32,855 bases of DNA from Corallococcus terminator (lineage in GTDB: Bacteria; Myxococcota; Myxococcia; Myxococcales; Myxococcaceae): positions 1 through 32,855 of the forward strand of contig NZ_RAVZ01000067.1 in assembly GCF_003611635.1 (NCBI RefSeq), written 5' to 3'. Both the position numbers and the translations under genes were made by a program. Positions 19,256 to 30,316 of this stretch are shown one piece after another; the stretch's first letter is position 1; each line of letters begins with the position of its first letter. The notes beneath the pieces are model-generated. The model saw only the letters and a list, made by a program, of their open reading frames with translations. It ran no database searches and was not told the origin of the DNA.

Positions 19256-19272
19256 CACAGGCCTTCAGCCCG
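19248..19272. terminator. Bidirectional hairpin between DUF2252 and carH
   Basis: CGGGCTG (19248-19254) pairs with CAGCCCG (19266-19272) over an 11-base loop. The stem includes the last codons of both convergent genes, so it would form at the 3' end of either transcript. It is the only candidate end for the long carotenoid operon in this gap. Confidence 0.5.
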
Positions 19273-20173
19273 AAAGGCGCGTCCAGTCGTCCTCGTGCAT
19301 GAACAGCCTCACGCCCAGGCGCTCGCACACGTCCGCGTGCGCCTGGGCCGCGGGGCCGCCCACCCAGACGGGCAGCTCCTTCGGCAATGCCTCACGCAAG
19401 CGCCGGAGCACGTCCTCGAACACCGTGGCACCCCGGTTCGTCACCGCCGACAGGCCCACCACGTCCGGACGGGCCCTCGCCACCGTCTCTCCCAGGCCCT
19501 CCGCCGGCACGCGCTGCCCCAGCAGCGTCACCCGCACGCCCGCGTACCGCAGCCGCAGCGCCGCCCCCAGGAGGCCCAGTTCGTGCTCCTCCTCCGGGAA
19601 ACAGGCCAGCACCGCGTGCTTGCGACCTCCCTCGGGCGCGCCGTGCAGCAGGCTCACCAGCCGCTCGCGCACCACCTGCGTCACCAGGTGCTCCTGCGCC
19701 ACCGACAACGTCCCCGCGTGCCAGCGCTCGCCCACCTCGCGCTGCACCGGCACGAGCACGTCCTCGAACGCGCGCAGGGGCGGCAGGGCCGACAACACCT
19801 GGTCCAGGATGCGGGAGACGCGCGGCTGGTCATACGCCTCCGCCGCAGCCATCACCGCCGCGCGCCACGACGTGGGCTGCGCTCCCCCGGCACCACCGGC
19901 CCGTTCCTCCCGGACCGGCGGCTCCGGCACGGTGTCCAGCTCCGCCATCAACTGGGGCAGCAGTTTCGCGGCCTCGCTGATGGCCACGCCTTCGTCCGTC
20001 AGCGCCTTGAGCCGCTTGAGCAGCGCGACGTCGCGGTCGGTGTAGACGCGGTAACCCGCTGGCGTGCGCTCCGGGACGAGCACCCCGTAGCGGCGCTCCC
20101 AGGCCCGGATGAGTTCCACGCGGACCCCTGACAGCTCCGCGGCGATGTGGATGCGATAGGTGCGCTCAGCCAT
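19265..20173 (-). CDS. carH: CarH: B12-dependent MerR-family photoreceptor repressor
   Basis: This 302-residue repressor has an N-terminal MerR winged helix (YRIHIAAELSGVRVELIRAWERRYG, residues 6-30, then YRVYTDRDVALLKRL). A flexible Pro/Gly-rich linker (about 82-100), a helical bundle and a Rossmann-like cobalamin domain follow. All photoreceptor residues known from Thermus CarH are present: the W-x9-EH motif as W151...E161-H162, His152 next to the Trp (the residue that takes over the cobalt in light), and the lower ligand His197 in PEEEHELG. In the dark, AdoCbl-bound CarH tetramers bind the operator; light cleaves Co-C and releases them. It is the last gene of the carotenoid operon, 10 bases after carA, with GGAAG before ATG 20173. 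Confidence 0.95.
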   Translation of the reverse strand: MAERTYRIHIAAELSGVRVELIRAWERRYGVLVPERTPAGYRVYTDRDVALLKRLKALTDEGVAISEAAKLLPQLMAELDTVPEPPVREERAGGAGGAQPTSWRAAVMAAAEAYDQPRVSRILDQVLSALPPLRAFEDVLVPVQREVGERWHAGTLSVAQEHLVTQVVRERLVSLLHGAPEGGRKHAVLACFPEEEHELGLLGAALRLRYAGVRVTLLGQRVPAEGLGETVARARPDVVGLSAVTNRGATVFEDVLRRLREALPKELPVWVGGPAAQAHADVCERLGVRLFMHEDDWTRLSG

Positions 20174-20183
20174 GGTGCTTCCG

Positions 20184-21044
20184 TCACGGTCGGTTCTGGG
20201 CGTTCCTCACCTGCTGCCAGATGGCGATCAGCTCCTCCGCGGACTCCGCGTACTGAGCGCCCAGGGTGAAGAGGGTCTTCAGGTGCTCTCGCGCCCCCGG
20301 ACCGCCTACCACCATCGGCACCGAAGCGCAGGCCTGCAATGACTCCGACAACACCGTGAGGAACTCCTGCGCTTCCCGACGCCGCACGAACGACAACGCC
20401 ACCACGTCCGGCCGCACCTGCACGCAGGCCCCGTGCAACGCCTCCGCGGGCGTGTCCGCCCCCAGCAACGTCACCCGCCAGCCCCGCGCCTTCAGGTGCA
20501 CACCCAGCGCGAGCAGCCCTCCCTCATGGTGGTCTCCCGCCGGGCAGGCCAGGAGTCCCCGGGGCCCGTCGCTCACGCTCACCATGCTCGCGAGCAACAG
20601 GCGCAGCCGCTGCCGCACCAGCGCGGAGGCCAGGTGTTCGCGCGCCACATCCAGGCGCGACGCCATCTCCCGGAGCACGGGAATCAAGAACGTGTCGCAG
20701 AAGGTCGTGGCGTCCAGGTGCTCCCCGGCCTCCTCCAGCACCGCGTCCGCCGCGTCCGCGTCCAGCACCATCACCGCCGCCCAGAAGCGCTCCATCAGCC
20801 GCGAGTCCTGCCGGGCGGACTGCGCGGGCGAGGCGCGCACCTGGGCGATGGCCTCGCTCACCGACAGGCCGCCCTCCATCAACTTCGCCACCCGGCGCAC
20901 GGCCTCCACTTCGTCGCGTGAATAGACGCGGTAGTTGTTCTCGCTGCGCTCCGGACGCGGAAAGCCATAGCGGCGCTCCCAGGCGCGCAGCGTGGCCTCA
21001 CGGATGCCGGTAAGCCGGGCGATGGTGCGGATGCGAAGGCTCAT
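20184..21044 (-). CDS. carA: CarA: MerR-family repressor of the carotenoid operon
   Basis: This 286-residue paralog of CarH has a MerR domain (RIRTIARLTGIREATLRAWERRYGFPRPERSENNYRVYSRDEV) and a C-terminal cobalamin-type domain. The photoreceptor set is only partly kept. The segment LREMASRLDVAREH is three residues shorter than in CarH and lacks both the Trp and its neighbouring His, although E136-H137 remains. The lower-ligand motif reads D171-H-H173 (GDHHEGG). This fits the M. xanthus finding that CarA represses without needing B12 and is instead switched off by the antirepressor CarS, made in light; no carS gene is in this window. Its start overlaps the acyltransferase stop (ATGA). It blocks the crtE promoter in the dark. 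Confidence 0.93.
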   Translation of the reverse strand: MSLRIRTIARLTGIREATLRAWERRYGFPRPERSENNYRVYSRDEVEAVRRVAKLMEGGLSVSEAIAQVRASPAQSARQDSRLMERFWAAVMVLDADAADAVLEEAGEHLDATTFCDTFLIPVLREMASRLDVAREHLASALVRQRLRLLLASMVSVSDGPRGLLACPAGDHHEGGLLALGVHLKARGWRVTLLGADTPAEALHGACVQVRPDVVALSFVRRREAQEFLTVLSESLQACASVPMVVGGPGAREHLKTLFTLGAQYAESAEELIAIWQQVRNAQNRP

Positions 21045-28540: not shown

Positions 28541-29629
28541 TCAGGAAGCGCGGCGCGCGAGACGGGCGATGAGGGCATCCAGCAGGTCCCTCATGCCATG
28601 GGAGTTGGGCAGTGCCTGCAGGCCCCGACGCGCCGAACGCGACGCCCGCTCCACCGCGCGCTCACACGCGACACGGCCTCCGAACGACTCCACCAGCGCA
28701 CGGGCCCGGGCCAGCGCCTCCGCGTCCTTCTGCTCCACCGGCAGCGCCCACAACCGCTCCAGCTCTTCGCGGCCCGCGGGCGTGGCGCGCACGTAGGCCG
28801 CCATCAACGGGAAGGTGCGCTTGCCCTGCGTGAAGTCACCGTCGCACGCCTTGCCCGCCACCGACGCGTCACCAAACAGGCCGATGAGGTCGTCGCGAAG
28901 CTGGTAGGCGAGCCCCACCGAACGGCCCACCTGCTCCAGGCCTTTCTTGAGCGTTTCATCCGCGCCGCCCAGCATCGCGCCGCACACCAGCGGGGCGCTG
29001 AAGCCGTAGCGCGCCGTCTTGAGGTGGGCCACGCGCAGCGTCTGGAAGAGCGTCACCTCCGACAGCGGCATGCGCGACAGGTCCAGGTCCAGGTACTGCC
29101 CCGCGGCCGTGTGCCGGCACACGCCCAGGTAGTACTGCACCACGCGAGTGACGCCCGGCAGCTCCGACTCCAGCATCGCCTCCAGCGAGCGCGCGAAGAG
29201 GTGGTCCCCCACGACGATGGCCAGGTCCTCGCCCTGCCGTCCCGGGGCCAGCATCCGGTGCAGCACCGGCCCACCCCGCCGCAGCGCCGCCTGGTCCGCC
29301 ACGTCGTCGTGGATGAGCAGGAACGTGTGCAGCAGCTCCAACCCGGCCGCGAAGCCCCACAGGCCCGGAGGCACCGCCGTGCTCTCCCGCGCCAGCCCAT
29401 GCCCCGCGAGCACCAACGCCGGCCGCAGCCGCTTGGCGGGCCGCAGCGCGTAGTCCCGCGCCTGCTCCATGGCGCGCGACCAGCGGGGGTCCAGCGAGGC
29501 CTCGTCCGGCAGTTCGAACAGCAACCCGAGCGCCGCCTCCACCCGTGCCTGCACGAGCTGCAGCCAGGCCTGCTCCGGAGGCGCCACATCCGAGGGAGCC
29601 TGCTGCACGTTGGGAAGCGAGATGGCCAT
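28541..29629 (-). CDS. crtE: Geranylgeranyl diphosphate synthase
   Basis: This 362-residue all-helical prenyltransferase elongates allylic diphosphates with isopentenyl diphosphate to C20. The first Asp-rich motif is LLIHDDVAD (DD at 108-109) with R117-R118 nearby. The second motif region is AYQLRDDLIGLFGD (DD at 246-247), which has DDxxG in place of the common DDxxD, as in several actinobacterial and myxobacterial enzymes. The DFTQGKRTFP loop (265-274) is conserved. It is the first gene of the carotenoid operon. ATG at 29629 is chosen because the longer frame to 29740 would begin inside the operator. A GGAG lies 10 bases upstream of this ATG. Confidence 0.94.
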   Translation of the reverse strand: MAISLPNVQQAPSDVAPPEQAWLQLVQARVEAALGLLFELPDEASLDPRWSRAMEQARDYALRPAKRLRPALVLAGHGLARESTAVPPGLWGFAAGLELLHTFLLIHDDVADQAALRRGGPVLHRMLAPGRQGEDLAIVVGDHLFARSLEAMLESELPGVTRVVQYYLGVCRHTAAGQYLDLDLSRMPLSEVTLFQTLRVAHLKTARYGFSAPLVCGAMLGGADETLKKGLEQVGRSVGLAYQLRDDLIGLFGDASVAGKACDGDFTQGKRTFPLMAAYVRATPAGREELERLWALPVEQKDAEALARARALVESFGGRVACERAVERASRSARRGLQALPNSHGMRDLLDALIARLARRAS

Positions 29630-29676: not shown

Positions 29677-29706
29677 GAGGTAGCGTTTGCGTCCAGCGAT
29701 TGTCAA
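29677..29706 (-). promoter_or_regulatory. Promoter of the carotenoid operon (P_B)
   Basis: On the minus strand a perfect TTGACA (29706-29701) is followed after 18 bases by TACCTC (29682-29677), or after 17 bases by CTACCT. This is a vegetative-type promoter with a good -35 and a poor -10, in line with a strongly repressible promoter. It would start transcription near 29670, about 40 bases before crtE. The -35 overlaps one operator half-site. Confidence 0.7.
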
Positions 29707-29734
29707 GGCTATGTCTAAGGTTTGTGAGAACCTT
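29705..29734. promoter_or_regulatory. CarA/CarH operator
   Basis: Three half-sites start exactly 12 bases apart: AAGGCT (29705-29710), AAGGTT (29717-29722) and AACCTT (29729-29734). The last two form a perfect dyad with a 6-base spacer, about -64 to -47 relative to the predicted crtE transcript start. The first overlaps the -35 TTGACA. This bipartite layout, a distal palindrome plus a site over the -35, is what is known for the CarA operator of M. xanthus. Binding here is inferred. Confidence 0.7.
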
Positions 29735-29752
29735 GTACACGGGAGGCTCCCA

Positions 29753-30316
29753 ATGAAAGCGTGGATCACGAGTGCGTTGACGGTGACCCTGGCGGCGGGG
29801 AGCGCGAGTGGCGCGCCTCCGACTCCGGAGCCGGTGGATGCGACCCTGAGCACCTCCAAAGGCGAGCGCGTGCGCCTGTCACGATGGCGAGGCAAACCCG
29901 TCATCTTGTTCTACGAGGACAAAGACTCCACGGCCCTCAACGCGCCCCTGAAGGAGGAGTTGTTCGCTCGCGGGCGCGAGCGGGGCCTCCTTCAAAGTGC
30001 CTGGGTGGTCGCGGTCGCCAATTTGGAAAAGTACGACTTCTTCCCCGCGAGGGAGATTGCCCTGTCGTACGTAAGGGACGAGGAGAAGAAGGCCGGAGTC
30101 CCCATCCTGGTCGACCTGGAGGGCACCCTGGGACAGGCCCCCTGGAAGCTGCCCACCAAGACGTCCAATGTGATGCTGTTGGACGCGGAAGGGTCGTTGG
30201 TCTTCCGACACTCGGGCCGCATGAAGCCGGAGGACCGGGCGCGCTTCTTCGTCGCGCTGAGCGGACTGGTGGGCCAGGACCTCACGACGGAAGCGGTGAC
30301 GGAGGCCCAGCCGTGA
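29753..30316 (+). CDS. Exported redoxin-like protein (YtfJ-like), no active-site cysteines
   Basis: This 187-residue protein has a Sec signal peptide (ITSALTVTLAAGS, cleavage about ASGA at residue 21) and then a thioredoxin-like fold: LSRWRGKPVILFYEDKDS, AWVVAVANL, GVPILVDLEGTLGQAPWKL and SNVMLLDAEGSLVFRHSGRM. The mature part has no cysteine at all, so it cannot act as a thiol-disulfide redoxin. The layout recalls YtfJ of enterobacteria, whose role is unknown. ATG at 29753 has GGGAGG upstream. It is divergent from crtE, and a possible promoter (TTGCGT at 29687, TATGTC at 29710) runs through the CarA/CarH operator. Its stop overlaps the start of the next gene (GTGA). Confidence 0.82.
   Translation: MKAWITSALTVTLAAGSASGAPPTPEPVDATLSTSKGERVRLSRWRGKPVILFYEDKDSTALNAPLKEELFARGRERGLLQSAWVVAVANLEKYDFFPAREIALSYVRDEEKKAGVPILVDLEGTLGQAPWKLPTKTSNVMLLDAEGSLVFRHSGRMKPEDRARFFVALSGLVGQDLTTEAVTEAQP

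Follow-up and report, generated by a model that had tools for sequence, protein, structure and literature searches.

The region upstream of crtE in Corallococcus terminator contains both 6-bp half-sites with a 12-bp period and 11-bp direct repeats, and it is flanked on its other side by a divergently oriented gene. The locus raises the question of which of these repeats is the working unit of an operator for the regulators CarA and CarH, and of which genes that operator would control. We examined this in the window (the whole stretch of 32,855 nucleotides that was analyzed), in the 10.35-Mb genome to which it belongs, and in related genomes. The features are listed in Table 1.

Table 1. Positions of genes, repeats and promoter elements in the window
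Feature	Position	Strand	Remarks
carH	19265..20173	-	MerR and B12-binding domains; Wx9EH = WHAGTLSVAQEH
carA	20184..21044	-	MerR and B12-binding domains, no Wx9EH
crtE	28541..29626	-	Encodes a polyprenyl (GGPP) synthase; heads the carotenoid operon
crtE -10, TACCTC	29677..29682	-	18 bp from the -35; identical to the -10 mapped at M. xanthus PB (PMC8156234)
Candidate divergent -35, TTGCGT	29687..29692	+	Predicted from conservation only
dr5, TCGCTGGACGC	29689..29699	-	AC of the motif retained in 58/63 operators
DR4, AGCCTTGACAA	29700..29710	-	Contains the crtE -35; intact in 63/63 operators
crtE -35, TTGACA	29701..29706	-	Within DR4; invariant in 63 operators
Candidate divergent -10, TATGTC	29710..29715	+	17 bp from TTGCGT, over DR3/DR4; predicted from conservation only
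DR3, ACCTTAGACAT	29711..29721	-	Intact in 62/63 operators
Perfect inverted repeat, AAGGTT-N6-AACCTT	29717..29734		Found in two genera only
dr2, GGTTCTCACAA	29722..29732	-	T lost; holds most of AAGGTT; full motif in only 16/63 operators
DR1, CCCGTGTACAA	29733..29743	-	TnnACA intact here and in 51/63 operators
Divergent gene	29753..30316	+	187 aa, probably secreted, cysteine-free, thioredoxin-fold-like; weak YtfJ and AhpC-TSA matches

The crtE promoter and its repeats

Read on the crtE sense strand from 29743 down to 29689, the sequence is CCCGTGTACAA GGTTCTCACAA ACCTTAGACAT AGCCTTGACAA TCGCTGGACGC, which on this minus strand constitutes five tandem 11-bp repeats of the form nnnnTnnACAn, in the order DR1-dr2-DR3-DR4-dr5, over a total of 55 bp. 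DR1 and the tandem pair DR3-DR4 are intact, and dr2 and dr5 each have one mismatch. The -35 hexamer TTGACA falls within a repeat (DR4), and the gene order of the window places the array upstream of crtE in an operon that ends with carA-carH. Searching the 10.35-Mb genome for three tandem TnnACA motifs with at most one mismatch returned one site, in three overlapping registers, and this tandem-pattern search found no second operator elsewhere in the genome. The degeneracy of dr2 and dr5 may count against certainty over how many of the repeats are used.

An array of five nnnnTnnACAn repeats in the order DR1-dr2-DR3-DR4-dr5, with TTGACA in DR4, has been published for Myxococcus and C. coralloides (PMC9304148). 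The Pcrt (PB) promoters of Myxococcus xanthus and C. coralloides share with the C. terminator promoter the 55-bp length of the array, the TACCTC -10, a dyad upstream of the -35, and an operon with crtE first and carA-carH last (PMC9304148; PMC8156234). They differ from it by single bases in dr2 and dr5, and DR4 begins with AGCCTT in C. terminator versus ACCCTT in most relatives from the genus Myxococcus.

The preliminary description of this promoter had instead singled out three half-sites, AAGGCT, AAGGTT and AACCTT, and these are indeed found on the plus strand at 29705-29710, 29717-29722 and 29729-29734, with a start-to-start spacing of exactly 12 bp. AAGGTT-N6-AACCTT is, as described, a perfect dyad, present in a single copy in the 10.35-Mb genome, and AAGGCT overlaps the minus-strand TTGACA (29706-29701) by two bases. 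The repeats, their coordinates and their spacing are confirmed, and the interpretation given to the half-sites is partly supported. The identification of the site as a CarA/CarH operator holds, with an inverted repeat that agrees with the original bipartite description in M. xanthus; the span 29701-29734 proposed for it is too short, the element extending from 29689 to 29743.

Periodicity of the array

When the 55-bp element was compared with itself, matching was significant at lags 11 (0.455; shuffle p = 0.0017) and 22 (0.515; shuffle p = 0.0008). It was not significant at lags 12 (0.326; shuffle p = 0.14) and 24 (0.323; shuffle p = 0.20). Compared with DR3, DR4 has its CCTT one base further along, indicating that the 12-bp spacing of the half-sites is a by-product of the 11-bp array. 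In the preliminary description, this spacing was taken to suggest that the MerR domains of a tetramer lie along almost a single face of the DNA. Assuming 10.5 bp per turn, a 12-bp step rotates by 51 degrees and an 11-bp step by 17 degrees, and since the 12-bp step is so far out of phase, the same-face argument suits a period of 11 bp better.

In both Cystobacter and M. xanthus, the published footprints fall on the 11-bp repeats. Protection recurs every 10-11 nt along a single face of the DNA and depends on repeats being in tandem, and CarA and Cystobacter CarH give similar patterns whether palindromes are present or absent (PMC9304148). The 12-bp spacing is therefore an incidental reading of an 11-bp array. 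CarA is a dimer and so is Cystobacter CarH (PMC9304148), the only Cystobacterineae CarH studied in vitro, and a tetramer is thus not assured.

Conservation among relatives

We retrieved the sequence upstream of crtE from 74 relatives; 63 operators, including that of the window, align without gaps, and these span eight genera. Mean information is 1.70 bits in the motif columns and 1.06 bits in the rest of the element. Further out in the family, most genera have 11-bp arrays in the same gap, and some of these genera lack carA. The 12-bp triplet has a much narrower distribution. All three half-sites are intact together in 15 of the 63 operators, 14 of which belong to C. terminator's own genus; counted by genome, the triplet is kept in 14/16 genomes of that genus, in 1/27 of the genus that includes M. 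xanthus (g19), and in none elsewhere.

These data bear on two other accounts of the site. The first is that a CarA/CarH tetramer places one of its MerR domains on each of the three 12-bp half-sites. Although the half-sites and their spacing are exact and the triplet is retained in the genus, we consider this account extremely improbable: lag 12 does not rise above chance, successive sites would be rotated by about 51 degrees, the triplet is nearly confined to one genus, and the published units are 11 bp long and bound by proteins that are dimers (PMC9304148). The second account is that CarA dimers recognize inverted repeats, with AAGGTT-N6-AACCTT as a high-affinity site, as in the original two-palindrome proposal of 2004 for M. 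xanthus (PMC9304148). This dyad is unique in the genome, and a perfect dyad is found in 28 of the 63 operators, all of them from two genera that have CarA. However, where positions in the dyad arms have changed, 83 cells are broken and 1 is compensated (the genomes are related, so cells are not independent events); the arms do not show the co-variation expected of a palindromic MerR-type operator. Moreover, a perfect dyad is missing from CarA-bearing genomes of genera g3 and g7, and CarA binds the palindrome-free Cystobacter operator in the same way (PMC9304148). The palindrome is thus an unlikely recognition unit, albeit one that may have some role in C. terminator's own genus, where it is perfect in 15/16 genomes. 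Taken together with the published footprints, the comparison indicates that the working unit is the 11-bp direct repeat, of which there are five, rather than three 12-bp half-sites.

Several individual operators differ in detail. In M. xanthus AM003 (L081, G078), the right arm of the dyad is AACCCT and the palindrome is imperfect, with DR1, DR3 and DR4 intact. A record named Comamonas sp. KCTC 72670 (L045) contains a Myxococcus-like crtE region, and its name looks wrong. The crtE promoter spacer is 17 rather than 18 bp in L096, L097, L099 and L100, one base having been lost between the conserved CGCAA and the -10; the spacing of the candidate divergent promoter described below is unaffected.

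The carotenoid operon and its regulators

The operon is intact in the window, with a minus-strand gene order that runs from crtE to carA-carH, and the nearest named crtE, from C. praedator, is 94% identical. Pfam domains and the Wx9EH motif WHAGTLSVAQEH in the translation identify the carH product as a CarH photoreceptor; against the NCBIfam CarH model it scores 130 of 400 bits, below the cut-off. The CarH paralogue encoded upstream of carH, without Wx9EH, is identified as CarA. Presence of Wx9EH in CarH and its absence from CarA are expected of a B12-dependent and B12-independent pair (PMC8156234). The genome also encodes a CarF-type lipid desaturase.

Partial copies of carA were observed in some relatives. 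Citreicoccus-type genomes (g5) have only a fragment resembling the carA C-terminus next to carH (G014:C40:85552-85908 and G015:C5:799506-799664), one with an internal TGA, and carA appears to be decaying in them, judging from these remnants. Another genome encodes a second partial CarA downstream of carA-carH (G028:C1:2967772-2968197), 79% identical over residues 1-142.

Proposed mechanism

We are highly confident that the site is the Pcrt operator, in which 11-bp repeats are bound by CarA and AdoCbl-CarH to give light-relieved silencing of the crtE-to-carH operon; this judgment leaves out the divergent promoter considered below. The repeats, the operon and the regulators are read directly from the DNA sequence, and we infer binding and light control at the C. 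terminator operator by analogy with M. xanthus and Cystobacter. Dark occupancy by CarA and AdoCbl-CarH, breakage of AdoCbl by light, and removal of CarA by CarS are established in M. xanthus (PMC8156234). The Cystobacter CarH operator has the same position and the same 11-bp tandem repeats, and in contrast to the C. terminator operator it has neither palindromes nor an accompanying CarA, and its second repeat is intact and its first degenerate (PMC9304148).

In the dark, CarA and AdoCbl-loaded CarH would occupy the 11-bp repeats, with each DNA-binding domain taking one repeat and all of them lying on one face of the DNA. Occupancy of DR4 would mask TTGACA from RNA polymerase, and the crtE-to-carH operon would be silent. 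Light would break AdoCbl in CarH and lift CarH repression, and CarS, induced through the CarF/CarQ route, would remove CarA. The 12-bp half-sites and the dyad would represent a local sequence variant atop the repeats and not a recognition unit.

A divergent thioredoxin-like gene

The operator lies inside the 126-bp gap between crtE and the divergent gene. The divergent gene has its ATG 9 bp away from DR1, and most relatives have 7-12 bp here. Its ribosome site, GGGAGG, abuts DR1, so transcription of the gene has to begin either inside the operator or past it. Homologues are present in 80 of 96 family genomes, and they co-occur with crtE: 79 genomes have both, 11 have neither, and 5 and 1 are mixed (Fisher p = 6e-10). 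The two genes are divergent in all 48 genomes checked, with start codons 91-277 bp apart, and within the order a single genome outside the family has a homologue. The protein has a signal-peptide-like start. It resembles YtfJ and AhpC-TSA (TlpA- and ResA-like) thioredoxin-fold proteins, with best fold matches to ResA-/TlpA-type proteins, but its sequence contains no cysteine, its profile matches are weak and under the Pfam cut-offs, and its thioredoxin-like model is of low confidence (pLDDT 58.7).

Translation from an in-frame ATG inside the operator was considered and rejected, as the frame from operator to gene shifts among relatives. In the carA-less g6 genomes (L125-L128), CTG replaces ATG at the usual start of the divergent gene; if the upstream in-frame ATG is used there, DR1 falls within the coding sequence.

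A candidate divergent promoter

A candidate promoter for the divergent gene, TTGCGT-N17-TATGTC, overlaps the operator; its spacer falls in the 16-18 bp range sought for a sigma-A promoter. Its -35 columns lie at the dr5 edge and in the crtE promoter spacer, with 1.66-1.85 bits over CGCAA, although this conservation might reflect the operator edge instead. Of 79 gaps, 61 contain TTGC-N17-TAT on this strand, compared with 3 on the other strand and 0.5 expected, in genomes that are related and not independent; more distant genera have variants such as TTGCAG-N17-TATAGA and TTGCGC-N17-TATAAT. A promoter built on TTGTCA (29700-29705) was also considered for the divergent direction and rejected, its -10 position not being conserved. 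Scans with a fixed sigma-70 consensus and a weight matrix detected no significant promoter on the plus or the minus strand of the window, and in single genomes the matrix placed neither the candidate divergent promoter nor the mapped-type crtE promoter above shuffles. Since these scans also missed the promoter that matches the mapped M. xanthus one, they are uninformative here.

On this pattern of conservation, we lean slightly towards the same operator covering the candidate divergent promoter and thus controlling the thioredoxin-like gene. The operator may instead act on crtE only, the divergent gene having an independent promoter or being reached by read-through and its adjacency being incidental. 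This is plausible, if on the doubtful side: the matrix score of the divergent promoter is not significant, and searching the open literature library for light control of the divergent gene turned up no publication, but the abutting Shine-Dalgarno requires a transcript start that lies inside or past the operator, the association of the gene with crtE, in presence and in position, is almost complete, and TTGC-N17-TAT is conserved.

Control in both directions has a counterpart in Sorangium cellulosum, where Pcrt Sc1 and Sc2 likewise have one array between divergent genes, over both promoters (PMC9304148). The partners in Sorangium are carotenoid genes whose light control has been measured (PMC9304148), whereas here the partner is a thioredoxin-like gene whose control is predicted from sequence. 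Divergent control by CarH is known in Sorangium, and for C. terminator's own group the open literature library yielded no report of it.

Implications

The eight-genera comparison shows that selection retains the 11-bp direct repeat and not the palindrome or the 12-bp half-site, and so puts a familiar B12/light operator back in its proper register. The operator type itself is already known, and the sole new element is the bidirectional reading: it is somewhat probable, in our judgment, that the Cystobacterineae Pcrt operator is bidirectional, its 11-bp CarA/CarH repeats repressing both the carotenoid operon and a conserved, crtE-linked gene for a probably secreted, cysteine-free thioredoxin-like protein. 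If true, that gene would be an unrecognized member of the light/B12 regulon, and the conserved divergent gene is a new candidate for the myxobacterial light response.
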